From contig CAINFC010000135.1 of the NCBI GenBank assembly GCA_903847975.1, positions 1 through 35,648 of the forward strand: a stretch of DNA of 35,648 nucleotides. The letters run 5' to 3'. Below, one piece after another: positions 1 through 31,443 of this stretch (position 1 is its first letter; each line of letters opens with the position of its first letter). A model generated the notes under the pieces. It searched no databases and was not told the origin of the DNA. It was given only the letters and a program-made list of their open reading frames with translations. Made by a program: the position numbers and the translations under genes. Source of the DNA: an uncultured Acidobacteriota bacterium. Its GTDB lineage: Bacteria; Acidobacteriota; UBA6911; CAINFC01.

Positions 1-4
1 ACCA

Positions 5-166
5 GCCTTTTCGCCTTTCTTCCCGCTCTTCCTTTCTTCCTGTGAGTCCTATCTTTTCACAGGAAGACGGGAAGATCAGGAAGGAAGAAAAAAGCCATCA
101 GGGCATTTCGGATGGAGAGAGGGCCTTTTTACCGCTTCATCTTTATTGATAGCTTCGCAATAAATC
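5..166 (+). repeat. Composite intergenic repeat, copy 1 (TC-rich hairpin plus GACTTTTT-type hairpin)
   Basis: Positions 5-100 form an imperfect hairpin: a pyrimidine-rich left arm ending CTTTCTTCCTGTGA and a purine-rich right arm starting TCACAGGAAGACGGGAAGA. About 24 bases on, 124-166 form a weaker hairpin (CCTTTTTACCGCTTCATC, then GATAGCTTCGCAATAAA). The same two-part arrangement recurs at 23078-23225 (opposite orientation) and 30497-30630. It encodes nothing convincing. The conserved order suggests a mobile or structured intergenic element, which is inference. Confidence 0.75.
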
Positions 167-440
167 CGTGAACCCTGAAGGGGTTCCGTAACACAGCCGG
201 GGTTGCGCCGCAGGCGCTACCCCGGGTAAACGGATTTGTTTTAAAATCAGCCCTGGAAGGGCTGCGCAAACAACGGCCATTGCGGATTTTGCGCAACCCT
301 TTCCGGGTTGTCGCCTGCAGGTGTCCCTACCCGGGGTAGGCGCGAAGCGCGCCAACCCCGGGCTGTGTTACGAAGCCCTTGCGGAGCTATCCCCAACGGA
401 AATCCGAAGATGTGCGACTTTTTGCCGGGCCGTCAAGGTT
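167..440. repeat. GC-rich interspersed repeat block, copy 1
   Basis: This gene-free stretch holds short GC palindromes such as CTACCCCGGGTA and CCCTACCCGGGGTAGG, arranged in a series that includes GGGGTTCCGTAACACAGCC and CCCCAACGGAAATCCGAAGA. The same series appears in reverse orientation at 18122-18258, with near-identical landmarks (TTCCGTTGGGGATTGCCC, AACCCCGGGCTGTGATTCGG). Short ORFs crossing it in both strands look like translated repeat rather than genes. It ends in GACTTTTTGCCGGGCCGTC (416-434), a half-copy of the GACTTTTT palindrome family. Positions 441-507 hold nothing recognisable. Confidence 0.7.
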
Positions 441-18069: not shown

Positions 18070-18100
18070 GGAGCGCAGGGCTTTCGCAAGAATTCCGGGC

Positions 18101-18141
18101 TTGTTGCGAAGCCATCAAAACAGATGACCCGGCAGAAAGTC
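18101..18141. repeat. GACTTTTT-family palindrome with AAAACA loop
   Basis: TTGCGAAGCCATC, loop AAAACA, then GATGACCCGGCAGAAAGTC: the two halves are imperfect reverse complements. It lies about 30 bp after the subtilase stop and may contribute to termination. Confidence 0.65.
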
Positions 18142-18258
18142 CCACATCTTCGAATTTCCGTTGGGGATTGCCCTGAAAGGGCTTCGTAACCCTACCCGGG
18201 GTAGCGCCTATACGGTGCAACCCCGGGCTGTGATTCGGAACCCCTTTCGGGGTTCCAG
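18122..18258 (-). repeat. GC-rich interspersed repeat block, copy 2 (inverted relative to copy 1)
   Basis: Reading the minus strand gives, in the same order as 171-430, GGGGTTCCGAATCACAGCC, a CTACCCCGGGTAG palindrome, a TTACGAAGCCC stretch, CCCCAACGGAAATTCGAAGA and a GACTTTCTGCCGGGTCATC half-palindrome. It is shorter than copy 1, which has an extra internal segment around 234-320. Confidence 0.65.
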
Positions 18259-18301
18259 ACTTTTTATCGATTCATCAAAACAGATAGTCTCGTAAAAAGT
18301 C
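18258..18301. repeat. GACTTTTT-family palindrome, best-preserved copy
   Basis: 44 bp: GACTTTTTATCGATTCATC, AAAACA, GATAGTCTCGTAAAAAGTC. The outer 8 bp pair perfectly (GACTTTTT/AAAAAGTC) and the ATC/GAT next to the loop also pair; some middle positions mismatch. The AAAACA loop is shared with the copy at 18101. Confidence 0.75.
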
Positions 18302-18421
18302 TTCTTCGCTCAGTACAAGCTTCAGCTTGCGTAGCACAAGCGAAATTCTGCTTGCAGCGCGCAGCCTGAAGGCTGAACTCAAAACGGCTTTGGTTTGTAA
18401 GTTTGTTTTCGGGTGTTTCTC

Positions 18422-18465
18422 GGCTTTTTGCGAAGCCATCCAAACAGATCGCCTCGCAGAATTTC
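18422..18465. repeat. GACTTTTT-family palindrome, third clustered copy
   Basis: GGCTTTTTGCGAAGCCATC, then CAAACA, then GATCGCCTCGCAGAATTTC. Inner pairing GCGA-G-C-ATC with GAT-G-C-TCGC is kept; the outer arm has drifted. Confidence 0.65.
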
Positions 18466-19109: not shown

Positions 19110-22100
19110 ATGAAAAAAGCAGCCTGTATTTTTATGTCGGTGCTTTCCTGCTTTGTCATGGAAGCGATGTCCTATACCCGCATGGTTTCCTTTTCCGGTG
19201 AGCCGGCGCTTTGGAGTCAGAAAAATATTCCCTACTGGATTCATGCCGCCGGATCTTCCCAGATCGCCAACGGCAGCGAATTCGCCGCCGCCCATGCTGC
19301 ATTCCGGACCTGGCAGAATGTGGCCACGGCAGACGTTTCCTTCCAGTACATGGGGACCACGCCCATACGCACGGTCGGCCAGGACGGAATCAACCTGGTG
19401 ACTTTTGCCGATGACACCATCCTTATGGGATCGGAAGTTGTTGCGGCGACATTCCTGTATTTTCAAAAGGACAGCGTGGGAACGGTCATCGAGGAGGCCG
19501 ATATTGCCCTGAACCCCTCCGTCCTCTGGTCTGCCAGCGCGGAACCAGACCGCTGGGATATGCAAGGCGTGATTACACACAATGTTGGCCATTTTATAGG
19601 CCTCGGGGAGTCGCCGCTGCTCTCCTCGGTCATGATGCCGTACGGCGCGCCGGCCCAGCTCTTACAGCGAGTTCTCAAGTACGACGATATCGCCGGGGTC
19701 ACGGAGAGCTATCCCGAAGCGGCGGCCATTTCCGCGCTGGGAGCCATATCCGGCCGCATTCTCCGCGAATCCCTGCCGGTTTTCGGCGCCCACGTGGTCG
19801 CCCTCGATGAAAACGGAACCCCCGTTCTTTCGGGGATTTCCAGCTCCGACGGCTCCTACCGCCTATCTCTGCTGCCGGCCGGCAGTTATCGCCTTTACGC
19901 GGAGCCGCTGGATGACCCGGTTTCGGAACAGAATATTGGAGGGGCCCCCGGGTCCTATTATTACCACCTGAATACTTCCTTCGGCACAACGTTCCTGGGG
20001 GATGGATTCGATATCAATCAGGCTCCAGCGGTCAAGCTCAACCCCGGGCAGACCGTGGACGGAAAAGATATTCGTACCGCACCGGCTACCACCTTGAATG
20101 TAACGGAGCCGGGCGGCACGCCGGCTCGCTTCTTGCCGGGCCAGCAGACCTGGCTGACCATCGGCGGTGCCGATTTCACGAATGATGCCATTTTTGCAGC
20201 CAGCTCGCCGGGCATTAGCCTGGCTCTGGGCAAAATCGGAGGGAGCATCGGGCCGTATGCGCCCATGAGCGCCGATTTGCGTGTGACGGTTTCCCCAAGC
20301 GTGGCGCCCGGGCCCAAAAGCCTGATTGCCTGGGGTAATTACGGAATCAGCATTCTGAGCGGCGGACTGGTGGTCACTCTGCCGCCGCCGTCGAATATCA
20401 AAGTTTCCACAGCAGCGGGCCCGGCCGCCGGAGGAACCGCGGTGACCATTACCGGCCAGGACTTCCGGAGCGGCGTTCAGGTCTTCTTCGGTGGCCTGCC
20501 TGCCGCCAGCGTGCAGTTCGTCAATTCCAATACCATCCAGGCGAATGCCCCTGCCGGCAACCCGGGGAGTGTGAACCTGGTGGTGGTGAATGCCGACGGC
20601 ACCTGGGGGGTTCTGGCGAATGCCTTCACCTATCAGAGCCAGGCGCTGCGCGTTCTCAGCCTTTCCGCTACGAGCGGCCCGCCCACCACGGTGCTGACCA
20701 TTCAGGGCGAGGGATTTGATGCCCAGATGCGGAATCTGCAGGTCTTCTTCGGATCCGCATCGGCCAGGATCCTGAGCGCTTCCACCAGCCGGATCGAGGC
20801 GATCGTGCCCTACGGCGCTTCCAGCGGCCCGGTCCGCGTGGTGGTTTCCGGGCAGTCGGCGGCAGGGCCAAACTTTACGGTGGTTCCCCTGGGATCCAGC
20901 AGCAATCACGCACCGGATATTCCCCAGTTCATCGATGCCACCATCGGTGCGATGGTGCCGATGAACAACATCAACGATGCCGTCTCCCTTGTGGAACTGC
21001 CTTTTACGTTCAGCCTGTTCCGGGACATCTATCCTGCCGGCAGCAAGATTGCCATTTGCACCAACGGCTGGATCAGCCTCGATGCTATCACCAGCCCGGA
21101 GAGCCGCAACGGGCCTCTGCCGGGTAAAACAGTCCAGCGACCGGATGGGAGTACCGGCCTGATTCCCACCGGCCTGATCGCCCCCTTCTTCAGCGACCTT
21201 TACGTGCGCACCGGCCTGTTTGTAGAGGTCGGCCGCAAAATAACCACGCGGACCGTCGGTACGGCACCCAACCGTCAGTTTGTGATCGAATGGTCGGATA
21301 TGGGCATCCTGGACGAAAACCAAAAGGACACCGGCGCCCGGGTGACCTTCGAGGTGGTTCTTTACGAGGGCAGCCAGGATATCCAGTTCATCTATTCCAC
21401 GCTGTCCGGCCTGCTTTCGGACGGCTCCACCGCCACCATCGGAATTCAGGACTCCTCCGCGTTGCAGGCCATCCAGAGCGGATTCAACCAGAATGTGCTC
21501 TCGGGAGTTTTTTCTCTGACCTACCACTTCGAAAACGGCAGCTACACCACCACTTCCAGTGTTACGGCGCGGCCCTTTTCCTTTCCTGACCAGGGTGGGT
21601 TTGCATTTTCCGCCGCCAGTTCGGGGAACGACGCGGTTCCCGGGTATGCTTTCATTTCTCCCAATTCGGGAAAGGACACCCCGACGGGGACGGCCGTGAT
21701 CGGCTTCTCCTCCCCGGACGGCAGCCTTCTTTCCGAAGTTTCCGTTCCCGCCTCCACTCTGGTGACCGGCGGCCGGGTTTATTTTGAAGCCAATGACCGG
21801 ATCCGCTCGGGGATCGCCCTGGCCAATCCCAACAACCAGATAGCGCTGGTCTCTTTTTACTTTACCGATTCCGCCGGCAATAATTACGGATGGGGAAACC
21901 TGCAGATCCCTGCCAACGGGCAGATTGCGGGCTTCCTGGACGAAACGCCCTTTACCGGAATCCGCAACTCCCAGGGTACGATGACCTTTGCGGCTAAAGT
22001 GTCCATTTCGGCCATCGGCCTTCGCGGGGTGACCAACGAGCGCGGCGAGTTCCTGATGACCTCTCTGCCGATTACGCCTCTCGCGGCAAACTCCACGGAT

Positions 22101-22952
22101 ACCGAAGTTCTGCTGCCCCGGGCGGCCAATGGCGGCGGGTGGAGCACGGATGTGCTTCTGGTGAATCCGACGGATGCCGCCATCACGGGAAAGATCAGCT
22201 TCACCGCCTCCGAGGGGGGCGCCTGGAATGTTACCGCCAACGGAGAGACCGGCAGCAGCTTCTCCTACGCGCTGGCACAGCGCAGCTCCTACCGGCTGGC
22301 CGTTTCCAGCAGCCAGGGTTCCAGACAATCCGGCTGGGTAACCGTCACGCGGGACACCGACAACACCCTGCCGGCCGCCGTGGCGGTTGTCTCCTCCAGC
22401 AAGAACGGAGTGACCACGAATCAGACCGCGGTGTCCTCGGCCACCGGAACGATATTCCGTTCCCTGGTCGAAGCCCAGGGCGCGGCCGGAACCGCCGGTT
22501 CCGTGCGGTCCGGCCTGGTGCTCATGAACTCCTCCACCGAGGCCTCGGAGATTTATTGCGAGCTCCGTGATTTCGACGGAAACTACCTCGGGCTTTATGC
22601 CGGATTCACACTCTCCGCGGCCAGCCAGAGGGAGGTTTACCTCACGGAATTGTTCCCCGCACTCACGCTGCCCTTCCAGGGAGTTTTGCGAGTCACTTCC
22701 TCCGGCTCCATCAAGGTGGCCGGAATCCGGGAAAAGGTCAATCAGCGCCGGGATGCGCTTTACGCTTCCATGGCGGTCAGCGAGGAAACGACGGCGGCCA
22801 GCGCGGAGCCGCGGTTCTTCCCGCACCTGGTTCATGGCGGGGGGTATTCCGTGCAGTTCACCCTTTTCAGCGGAATCACCGAACAGGCCACGAACGGGAA
22901 CCTGCTGTTCTATAACCAGAAGGGGTCGCCGCTGCCTTTGCCGGTCAAATAA
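19110..22952 (+). CDS. Large secreted matrixin-like protein with degenerate zinc motif, IPT/TIG domains and C-terminal modules
   Basis: 1280 residues. Signal peptide about 1-21. Residues about 25-200 resemble a matrixin (metzincin) domain: WSQKNIPYWIHAAG, AFRTWQNVATADVSFQYMG, DIALNPSVLW, then ITHNVGHFIGLGES and SSVMMPYG as Met-turn. The family motif is HExGHxxGxxH; here His157 and His161 remain, but the catalytic Glu is Asn158 and the third His is Glu167, so proteolysis is doubtful. A carboxypeptidase-regulatory-like domain follows (about 208-270; SGRILRESLPVFGAHVVALD), then two IPT/TIG domains (about 427-510 and 516-595), then a NIDO-like beta-sandwich region (about 604-815; KIAICTNGWISLDAI). 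Shared modules start near 845, 999, 1116 and 1235, the last containing FFPHLVHGGGYSVQFTLFSG. Probably a surface or extracellular binding protein derived from a protease. Confidence 0.88.
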   Translation: MKKAACIFMSVLSCFVMEAMSYTRMVSFSGEPALWSQKNIPYWIHAAGSSQIANGSEFAAAHAAFRTWQNVATADVSFQYMGTTPIRTVGQDGINLVTFADDTILMGSEVVAATFLYFQKDSVGTVIEEADIALNPSVLWSASAEPDRWDMQGVITHNVGHFIGLGESPLLSSVMMPYGAPAQLLQRVLKYDDIAGVTESYPEAAAISALGAISGRILRESLPVFGAHVVALDENGTPVLSGISSSDGSYRLSLLPAGSYRLYAEPLDDPVSEQNIGGAPGSYYYHLNTSFGTTFLGDGFDINQAPAVKLNPGQTVDGKDIRTAPATTLNVTEPGGTPARFLPGQQTWLTIGGADFTNDAIFAASSPGISLALGKIGGSIGPYAPMSADLRVTVSPSVAPGPKSLIAWGNYGISILSGGLVVTLPPPSNIKVSTAAGPAAGGTAVTITGQDFRSGVQVFFGGLPAASVQFVNSNTIQANAPAGNPGSVNLVVVNADGTWGVLANAFTYQSQALRVLSLSATSGPPTTVLTIQGEGFDAQMRNLQVFFGSASARILSASTSRIEAIVPYGASSGPVRVVVSGQSAAGPNFTVVPLGSSSNHAPDIPQFIDATIGAMVPMNNINDAVSLVELPFTFSLFRDIYPAGSKIAICTNGWISLDAITSPESRNGPLPGKTVQRPDGSTGLIPTGLIAPFFSDLYVRTGLFVEVGRKITTRTVGTAPNRQFVIEWSDMGILDENQKDTGARVTFEVVLYEGSQDIQFIYSTLSGLLSDGSTATIGIQDSSALQAIQSGFNQNVLSGVFSLTYHFENGSYTTTSSVTARPFSFPDQGGFAFSAASSGNDAVPGYAFISPNSGKDTPTGTAVIGFSSPDGSLLSEVSVPASTLVTGGRVYFEANDRIRSGIALANPNNQIALVSFYFTDSAGNNYGWGNLQIPANGQIAGFLDETPFTGIRNSQGTMTFAAKVSISAIGLRGVTNERGEFLMTSLPITPLAANSTDTEVLLPRAANGGGWSTDVLLVNPTDAAITGKISFTASEGGAWNVTANGETGSSFSYALAQRSSYRLAVSSSQGSRQSGWVTVTRDTDNTLPAAVAVVSSSKNGVTTNQTAVSSATGTIFRSLVEAQGAAGTAGSVRSGLVLMNSSTEASEIYCELRDFDGNYLGLYAGFTLSAASQREVYLTELFPALTLPFQGVLRVTSSGSIKVAGIREKVNQRRDALYASMAVSEETTAASAEPRFFPHLVHGGGYSVQFTLFSGITEQATNGNLLFYNQKGSPLPLPVK

Positions 22953-23094
22953 GATGGCTTCGCAAAAAGAAAAACAGGAAGTCCGAATGCAGTAGCCTGA
23001 ATCCAGAATATAAAAGACATATTTTCAACAGTTTACCACTATTCTGAATTCTATCTTCTGGATTCTGAATTCCAAAACTTTTTGCGAAGCCATC
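22953..23094. repeat. 142-bp nested inverted-repeat element
   Basis: Perfect 17-bp inverted termini: GATGGCTTCGCAAAAAG (22953-22969) and CTTTTTGCGAAGCCATC (23078-23094). Inside, AATCCAGAAT near 23000 mirrors TTCTGGATT near 23055, and the right part has ATTCTGAATT repeats. It begins at the stop codon of the matrixin-like gene. The termini are half-copies of the GACTTTTT palindrome. The interior is AT-rich compared with its neighbours. It could be a MITE-like unit or two palindromes with an insert between; no target-site duplication was identified. Confidence 0.7.
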
Positions 23095-23225
23095 AAAGAA
23101 GAGGGTCGAGGTAACAAGTCCAACTCTCCTTCAGGGATACTATGACTGCTTTTTTCTTCCTGATCTTCCAGTGAAATGATTGGGTTCACAGGAAGACAGG
23201 AAGAGCGGGAAGAATAGCGAAAGGG
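23078..23225 (-). repeat. Composite intergenic repeat, copy 2
   Basis: On the minus strand 23225-23143 is the TC-rich hairpin (TTCTTCCCGCTCTTCCTG, then CTTCCTGTGAA, right arm ending GGAAGAAAAAAGCAGTCA), nearly matching 5-100. It is followed by GGAGAG and then GACTTGTTACCTCGACCCTC, TTCTTT, GATGGCTTCGCAAAAAG, the second hairpin. It overlaps the right terminus of the 142-bp element. The rest, 23226-23280, holds only a CTGTCGACAG palindrome (23227-23236). Confidence 0.7.
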
Positions 23226-23280
23226 TCTGTCGACAGGAGATCGTGATTTTTTAGCGATTTCTTACGCCTGCGTTTCCGGG

Positions 23281-30364: not shown

Positions 30365-30496
30365 CCGGAAAGGGATTCTTCTTCCGCGGTGAAGAGTCCC
30401 GCAGGGACGGCAGAATTGGTGTCCGGTCATGGATTGTCGGGTCGGCTTCGGGCATTCCCGGCGATGCCGCAAAAAGCAGGTGTTCGCTGGCGACAG

Positions 30497-30630
30497 GCCC
30501 TTTCGTTTTTCTTCCCGCTCTTCCTTTCTTCCTGTAAAACCTATTTTTTCACAGGAAGAAGGGAAGCTCAGAAAGGGAAAAAGAAGCCGTCCGGGAATAT
30601 CGGAGTGAAAGACTTTTTGCGAACGGATCA
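30497..30630 (+). repeat. Composite intergenic repeat, copy 3
   Basis: 30497-30592 is the TC-rich hairpin (left arm CTCTTCCTTTCTTCCTGT, right arm ACAGGAAGAAGGGAAGC), closely matching copies at 5 and 23225. Eighteen bases later GACTTTTTGCGAACGGATC (30611-30629) is the half-copy of the second hairpin, and the thiD stop follows directly. The region 30365-30496 shows nothing recognisable. Confidence 0.7.
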
Positions 30631-31443
30631 TTGCCGGCGGACCGGCCTATTCCAGAGGGAGAAAAAGTGGCCCAGCGGTCCGGGGCCCTGGCCTATGCTC
30701 AGGGAGTGGCTCAGGGCCTCGGTGACATACATTTTGGCCTGTTCGGCGGCACTTTCCACGCTCATCCCTTTGGCCAGGCCGGCGCAGAGAGCCGATGCCA
30801 GGGTGCATCCGGAGCCGTGCAGATTGCGGGTCCGGACCCGCTCGGCATGGAGCTCGCAGAAGATCCTCCCATCGAAAAGAAGGTCTGTCGCCGGCCCGCT
30901 CAGGTGGCCGCCTTTAAGGTATACATATTTCGGACCGAAGTCGATCATTCGCCTGGCCGCTTCCTTCATGTCGTCCATGCAGCGGATGGCCATCCCGGCC
31001 AGGATTTCCGCTTCCTGGCGGTTCGGGGTAATGATGGTAGCCAGCGGCATCAGCACCCGGCAAAGCGGGCCCTGCGTTCCCGGAGGCATCAACCGCGCGC
31101 CGCTGGAGGCCACCATCACCGGGTCGACGACCAGCTTCCGCACCTTGTATCGGAACAGGGAGGAGGCGATGGTTTTGACCAGGGCGGCCCCGGCGATCAT
31201 ACCCGTTTTGACGGCGTGGGCCCCGATATCCTCAAAGACGGCTTCCATCTGGGCTTCCACCAGAGCGGGCCGGATCCGCTGAATGGCCAGGACCCCGCGG
31301 GTGTTCTGTGCGGTTACCGCGGTAATCACCGAGGAGCCGTGCACCCCCAGGGCGGCGAAAGTTTTCAGGTCGGCTTGAATTCCGGCACATCCGCCGCTAT
31401 CCGAACCGGCAATGGTCAACGCTTTACAAATGTTTTTTGACAT
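30628..31443 (-). CDS. thiD: Hydroxymethylpyrimidine / phosphomethylpyrimidine kinase
   Basis: 271 residues, ribokinase fold, cytoplasmic. ThiD phosphorylates HMP and HMP-P to HMP-PP for thiamine synthesis. Seen: LTIAGSDSGGCAGIQADLKT, SSVITAVTAQNTRGV, HAVKTGMIAGAALV, VVDPVMVASSGARLM, IITPNRQEAEILAG, YLKGGHLSG, and the active-site Cys213 in NLHGSGCTLASALCAG. Normal length. The start ATG has AAGGGG immediately upstream. No other thi genes are close and no TPP riboswitch core was recognised upstream, so it may be a stand-alone salvage kinase. The 3' end runs into the third composite repeat. Confidence 0.95.
   Translation of the reverse strand: MSKNICKALTIAGSDSGGCAGIQADLKTFAALGVHGSSVITAVTAQNTRGVLAIQRIRPALVEAQMEAVFEDIGAHAVKTGMIAGAALVKTIASSLFRYKVRKLVVDPVMVASSGARLMPPGTQGPLCRVLMPLATIITPNRQEAEILAGMAIRCMDDMKEAARRMIDFGPKYVYLKGGHLSGPATDLLFDGRIFCELHAERVRTRNLHGSGCTLASALCAGLAKGMSVESAAEQAKMYVTEALSHSLSIGQGPGPLGHFFSLWNRPVRRQ

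Follow-up and report, generated by a model that had tools for sequence, protein, structure and literature searches.

Several families of small gene-less mobile elements share one set of ends in the genome of an uncultured acidobacterium

Introduction

Bacterial MITEs are short and non-coding, carry terminal inverted repeats, are flanked by target repeats and occur in high copy numbers, mostly in intergenic regions (PMC10969869, PMC2229807). Within the IS1182 family of insertion sequences, different ways of dealing with the target have been described: IS1272 targets a stem-loop, which it deletes and replaces without target duplication (PMC5678879), ISPse1 duplicates 4 bp (PMC3281130), and some members target palindromic sites (PMC5678879, PMC4923244). 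As a hypothetical alternative, the authors of the IS1272 study also drew a duplication of the loop (PMC5678879, Fig 13c).

Here, we report on a window of 35,648 nt, i.e. the whole stretch of DNA that was analysed, from an uncultured acidobacterium. A preliminary description of this window had reported a composite repeat of two hairpins in three intergenic copies and offered a non-autonomous mobile element, a structured RNA or a terminator family as explanations. The repeat turned out to represent one family among several of tiny mobile elements without genes in this genome. They are of a known kind, the MITEs, with which they share terminal inverted repeats, target duplication, a short sequence free of a transposase gene and a high, dispersed copy number. 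As a variant, and in contrast to typical MITEs, they combine one end set with several unrelated interiors in the same genome and form chains in which one 6-bp target is used repeatedly. In the open-access literature, with the terms tried, we found no paper that contains the end sequence or describes IS1182-family MITEs.

Materials and methods

The host genome comprises 8.13 Mb in 326 contigs and is ~99% complete; base 1 of the window is base 1 of contig C135, and the nearest relatives of one protein encoded there belong to Acidobacteriota (up to 55% identity). A portion of 1.80 Mb was analysed as stretches. Because part of it had been selected for holding matches, the densities given below refer only to four large contigs with 0.80 Mb in total. 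Ends were scored by an 18-bp weight matrix, which at the same threshold found 147 strong ends in the 1.0 Mb searched and 5 in simulated sequence. The inverted ends of related elements from other organisms were located without this matrix, on which simulated sequence reached a score of 14 once per Mb.

Results

Borders and copy number of element A

Element A is ~174 bp long, and its ~18-bp terminal inverted repeats GATGRCCSGGYAAAAAGT...ACTTTTTRCSGGYYCATC enclose the TC/GA hairpin (Table 1). This hairpin, already recognised in the preliminary description, is real; in copy 1 its arms at 15-45 and 57-87 are 84% complementary. The borders given before had to be shifted, especially on the left side. 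Among 30 compared copies, the similarity spans from the inverted end GATGRCCCGGCAAAAAGT, some 50 nt 5' of the hairpin, to ACTTTTTACCGGGTCATC, hence the unit reads end, TC/GA hairpin, end. In the window, positions 5-120 and 30497-30612 form a direct repeat (83%), with inverted matches to 23164-23236.

The repeat is indeed present at the three places where it had first been seen, but three is far from its true number. The own genome gave 77 matches in a blastn search with window positions 1-175 and, at first look, 362 candidates, several of them at contig ends. By profile search, 65 distinct loci were located in the 1.8 Mb analysed, while the large contigs (0.80 Mb) gave 20. Scaled from the latter value, we estimate ~170-200 copies genome-wide. 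A lack of further copies, which the preliminary description had named as a refuting outcome, was not observed. The location between genes was confirmed as well, since the midpoints of only 10 out of 60 copies fall within open reading frames of at least 200 aa, compared to 83% of random positions, which represents an avoidance of genes. The repeats flanking element A are eroded in many copies, including copy 2 of the window.

Two insertions touch the ends of genes. The left 6-mer AAATAA (22947-22952) of the type-C element holds the TAA stop of the gene at 19110-22952, and the TGA stop (30628-30630) of a thiD-like gene on the minus strand (30628-31443) consists of the last two bases of copy 3 and one base of the adjoining 6-mer.

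Table 1. Mobile elements, their ends and 6-nt target repeats in the window.
Feature	Position	Strand	Remarks
Element A copy 1	1..141	+	left end lost at contig start; right terminal repeat CCTTTTTACCGCTTCATC at 124-141
Target repeat/spacer TTTATT, 6 nt	142..147	.	between copy 1 and type-B neighbour
Type-B neighbour, ~287 bp	148..434	+	ends GATAGCTTCGCAATAAAT, ACTTTTTGCCGGGCCGTC; right 6-mer AAGGTT differs from left
End of outer element facing the chain, GCTTGTTGCGAAGCCATC	18099..18116	+	
Target repeat AAAACA, first of three	18117..18122	.	
Short type-B element, 154 bp	18123..18276	+	flanks AAAACA / AAAACA
Target repeat AAAACA, second	18277..18282	.	
Type-D element, 158 bp	18283..18440	+	flanks AAAACA / CAAACA
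Target repeat CAAACA, third	18441..18446	.	
Half-like sequence GATCGCCTCGCAGAATTT past third 6-mer	18447..18464	-	possible decayed end; score 7.2
Type-C element, 142 bp	22953..23094	+	left end GATGGCTTCGCAAAAAGA, right end ACTTTTTGCGAAGCCATC; flanks AAATAA / AAAGAA
Element A copy 2, decayed ends	23101..23263	-	abuts type-C element across AAAGAA
Target repeat ATTCCC, left of copy 3	30454..30459	.	
Element A copy 3, 170 bp	30460..30629	+	terminal repeats 30460-30477, 30612-30629
Target repeat ATTGCC, right of copy 3	30630..30635	.	

Junctions, ends and the unit that moves

The second hairpin of the preliminary description, the GACTTTTT hairpin, is a junction at which an end of element A meets the end of another element across exactly 6 nt. 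It exists only where a neighbour abuts, as in copy 1 with its type-B and copy 2 with its type-C neighbour (Table 1). Copy 3, which has no abutting neighbour, lacks the facing half (score -21), hence the unit consists of one hairpin with terminal repeats and not of two hairpins. The earlier statement that the unit rather than each hairpin is maintained thus applies to the element, whereas the second hairpin belongs to two elements at once.

The ends, whose conserved outer part reads ACTTTTT, occur at a density of ~100 per Mb in the own genome, and their spacing is fixed. Facing ends not more than 40 nt apart are separated by exactly 6 nt in 36 out of 39 pairs. A facing partner with a score of at least 8 was found at gap 6 for 66 of 146 strong ends, compared to none at gaps 4, 8, 10 and 15 and 2 each at gaps 5 and 7. 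In the own genome, 111 sites fit the strict junction pattern, compared to none for the reversed control. The pattern is absent from 37 other genomes of the class, from 395 others sampled across the phylum and from viral contigs, and plasmids gave no good match to the 44-nt junction or to element A. Similar GACTTTTTGCGAAGCCATC repeats presumably exist in sulfate-reducing Desulfobacterota.

Regarding the unit that moves, the two ends of one element agree at 6.95 of 11 positions, compared to 6.29±0.25 after shuffling (13 of 2000 shuffles as high), while ends that face each other across the 6-mer agree at 6.40, compared to 6.62±0.20 (1705 of 2000 as high). Since an element's own ends are more alike than expected by chance and facing ends are not, the mobile unit is the element and not the palindrome. 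A palindrome with co-evolving arms as an independent unit was rejected, because its facing arms match no better than shuffled ones.

At least six interior types, which are mutually unrelated inside and share the common ends, were found among the two-ended elements: B (n=26, median 288 bp), A (n=15, 174 bp), E (n=10), D (n=9), C (n=3) and F (n=3). Their lengths range from 60 to 330 bp, a few elements of 60-70 bp are barely more than two ends, and none contains a transposase gene. Hairpin repeats of the form GAAGCCCTGAAAGGGCTTCGTA..AGCCCAGGGTTGG..CCAACCCTGGG, which resemble the type-B interior and lack the inverted ends, occur in other Acidobacteriota (L272, L276, L273, L274).

Target repeats and chains

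A search for target-site duplications, as initially proposed, was clearly positive. In the first comparison, which included 201 end pairs oriented as one element, the flanking 6-mers were identical in 18 cases (0.05 expected) and differed by one mismatch in 17 (0.9 expected). For end pairs 60-600 bp apart, not more than one mismatch was found in 46 of 113 pairs (~0.5 expected), where pairs from the same chain are not independent of each other and many unlinked loci with differing 6-mers contribute. The excess is limited to end spacings below ~600 bp. Together with the inverted ends and the high copy number, these direct repeats far above chance bear out the non-autonomous mobile element among the options considered initially.

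Moreover, several elements can stand in a chain on one and the same 6-mer. The chain in the window (18117-18446) reads AAAACA / AAAACA / CAAACA, and others are found in contig C36 (three times ATTCCT), in C169 (ATATAG / ATTTAG / ATTTAG) and in C6 at 331125-331750 (ATTTTT / AATTTT / AATTTT / ATTTTT). In contig C47 a type-B element is nested in a copy of A, GATC-AGGAAG-[B]-GGGAAG-GAA, at a point where other A copies are uninterrupted; on the right-hand side of B, the sequence of A has diverged.

The flanks of lone elements give some information on the target itself. Approximately 20 such flanks point to a probable preference near TC-N6-GA. The outer flanks can pair at 4.27 of 12 positions, compared to 3.83±0.35 after shuffling, and any palindrome in lone targets extends no further than ~3 bp per side. 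Since lone targets are not clearly hairpins, we do not claim a stem-loop as the target, and a general hairpin target is unsupported, in contrast to IS1272. The 6-mers begin and end mostly in A/T. They also lean strongly towards all-purine or all-pyrimidine composition: in 38 of 57 junctions, the minority class is represented by one base or none. This bias is not explained by any step of our model.

Candidate transposase

Only one element with an IS1182-like transposase gene was found in this genome. It is located on contig C220 (L243:1297-3180), occurs in one copy, has a length of 1884 bp with the DDE gene between GATGGCTTCGCAAAAAAG and GATAATCTCGCAAAAAAG, and adjoins elements of the group with the common ends. 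The protein matches PF05598 and PF13751 above cut-off and contains DUF772 and DDE_Tnp_1/DDE_Tnp_1_6 domains. NF033551 is the best NCBIfam match for both parts into which a stop divides the gene, and neither part reaches the whole-protein cut-off. The gene is decayed by this internal TAG stop and a disturbed 3' part. Furthermore, the outer 6-mers of the element disagree (ATCCTT / AGAGAA), hence it does not represent a clean insertion.

A close relative of the C220 transposase was not found among 395 other Acidobacteriota. Its nearest plasmid relative, with 30% identity, is from Microvirga. The ends of that copy, GACGGGGCGGTAAAAAGT, form a perfect pair and score 19.4 on the matrix of the acidobacterial genome; the 6-mers adjoining these ends differ. 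Three haloarchaeal plasmid copies (L255, L256, L257) possess GAGGGCGCAGTAAAAAGG-type ends in the same register together with 7-bp repeats, and more distant relatives from Streptomyces, Rhodococcus and Nostoc have other ends. The ends in register in Microvirga and the haloarchaea argue that ends of this type are tied to this transposase branch (25-30% protein identity).

Some features of these relatives deserve mention. In plasmid pMVF16-1 of Microvirga sp. VF16 (L253:2313-4132), a second inverted repeat, GAGCTATGACGGA/TCCGTCATAGCTC, lies ~5 nt outside the 18-bp ends, followed outwards by a perfect 9-bp direct repeat ATGGAGTGG; the outer inverted repeat could represent either a longer bipartite end or an insertion into an older palindromic element. 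The 7-bp repeats of the haloarchaeal copies (AGAGTAT, AGAGCAT, AGAGGTT) all start with AGAG, which points to a preferred target in haloarchaea.

Other potential partners were rejected. IS1634 (L245) has its own, different 22-bp ends, and IS1380 (L244) and IS4 (L242) lack a pair of such ends. Two candidates for an autonomous element among the long paired ends in the 1.8 Mb were false: C6 316549 contains ordinary genes, and C41 14659-19254 spans two separate chains.

Discussion

In our view, the elements are probably non-autonomous MITEs that a DDE transposase mobilises, duplicating 6 bp of the target in the process, and the likely partner is a member of the IS1182 family. The similarities to this family comprise the DUF772 and DDE domains of the sole candidate partner and the ends of its distant relatives, which are in register. 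The duplicated 6 bp distinguish the elements from both IS1272 and ISPse1. The enzyme behind their movement was probably an IS1182-like transposase, of which this genome now retains one broken copy.

According to the mechanism that we propose, a transposase acting in trans would bind the ~18-bp ends, and the element would be inserted between genes at a preferred TC-N6-GA site, where the staggered cut would be filled in and the 6-bp repeats would arise. Later elements would land on the same 6 bp, which would lead, presumably in this order of events, to a chain of unrelated interiors split by one 6-mer, with a pseudo-palindrome wherever two insertions abut.

Chains could also be explained without repeated targeted insertion, if the repeats underwent homologous recombination or tandem duplication. 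Near-identical tandem copies do exist in some chains, for example two adjoining B elements in C36 that are 98.8% identical over 86 nt. However, the interiors in most chains are unrelated and stand on a common 6-mer that differs from those of other loci. Since an exchange between loci would scramble the 6-mers, their chain-specific nature counts against this explanation, which we regard as improbable.

Only a little less favourable is the view of the elements as site-specific cassettes, as in integrons or the XerCD pdif modules, in which facing ends would form the site of a tyrosine recombinase with inverted arms and a 6-nt core around gene-less interiors. The inverted arms exactly 6 nt apart, as in dif-type sites, and the chains of exchangeable interiors would fit. 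Nevertheless, this view is rather unlikely, because the 6-mer varies among loci and is constant only within a chain, as expected for a duplicated target and not for a core that has to match between sites. Furthermore, the arms of one site agree no further than the family consensus, and many ends border plain DNA and still keep the 6-mer. Our elements also differ from pdif and integron modules, since the middle 6 nt are duplicated on insertion and the modules are gene-less.

A structured RNA or terminator family selected at gene ends is very unlikely. The strong TC/GA hairpin, the intergenic location and the position of 15 out of 43 scored copies between convergent genes are in line with such a role, but the copies occur in many gene contexts, no Rfam match was obtained, and copies 2 and 3 are devoid of a terminator-like site. 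The compensatory changes that had been suggested as a test were hardly seen; most pairs are nearly invariant, and the covariation term amounts to only -0.15 kcal/mol. The elements may nevertheless be used secondarily as terminator or mRNA 3' protector. Finally, REP/BIME-type palindromes spread by a RAYT (Y1) transposase, which like REPINs resemble our elements as high-copy, intergenic palindrome mosaics, can practically be dismissed, because a search of the ~99% complete assembly for the Y1 enzyme that the preliminary description had in mind found one truncated IS200-type fragment not flanked by the repeat and no RAYT, because facing arms do not covary, and because the elements instead show 6-nt duplications and long inverted ends, which to our knowledge are not REP features.

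Returning to transposition by an IS1182-like enzyme, the outermost bases of the elements offer a reason for the growth of chains. Each element starts with GAT and ends with ATC, so every insertion would remake the preferred site ATC-N6-GAT on both of its sides. We tentatively suggest a self-seeding transposition, an idea about which we remain somewhat doubtful, in which the outermost bases equal the target preference, one insertion creates two perfect targets, one 6-bp site gives rise to a chain of exchangeable modules devoid of genes, and the common ends capture hairpin repeats that exist end-less in related bacteria. The occurrence of pieces similar to the B interior without these ends elsewhere suggests such a capture of older hairpin repeats.

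The elements help to explain breaks in the assembly. The window itself starts inside a copy of element A, and the contigs that start or end inside A comprise C135, C137, C185, C186 and C54. An element end was found in the first 400 bp of 8 out of 61 contigs taken from base 1, compared to 4.3% of random internal windows. The A copy of C186 stops at the contig end, carries the 6-mer TTTATT (L003) that is also found at 142-147 of the window, and fits the missing left part of copy 1. Matching 6-mers therefore suggest that C186 may be joined to C135 (TTTATT) and C185 to C137 (CTGCCT).

Regarding the family, our results suggest that an IS1182-type enzyme can duplicate its target, whereas the best-known relative IS1272 deletes it. 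The 6-nt duplication between inverted arms resembles the hypothetical product drawn by the authors of the IS1272 study (PMC5678879, Fig 13c), although the lone targets here are not clearly hairpins. In the chains of this acidobacterium, targeted transposition into a single 6-bp site would have left a natural record from which the repeated insertions can be counted.
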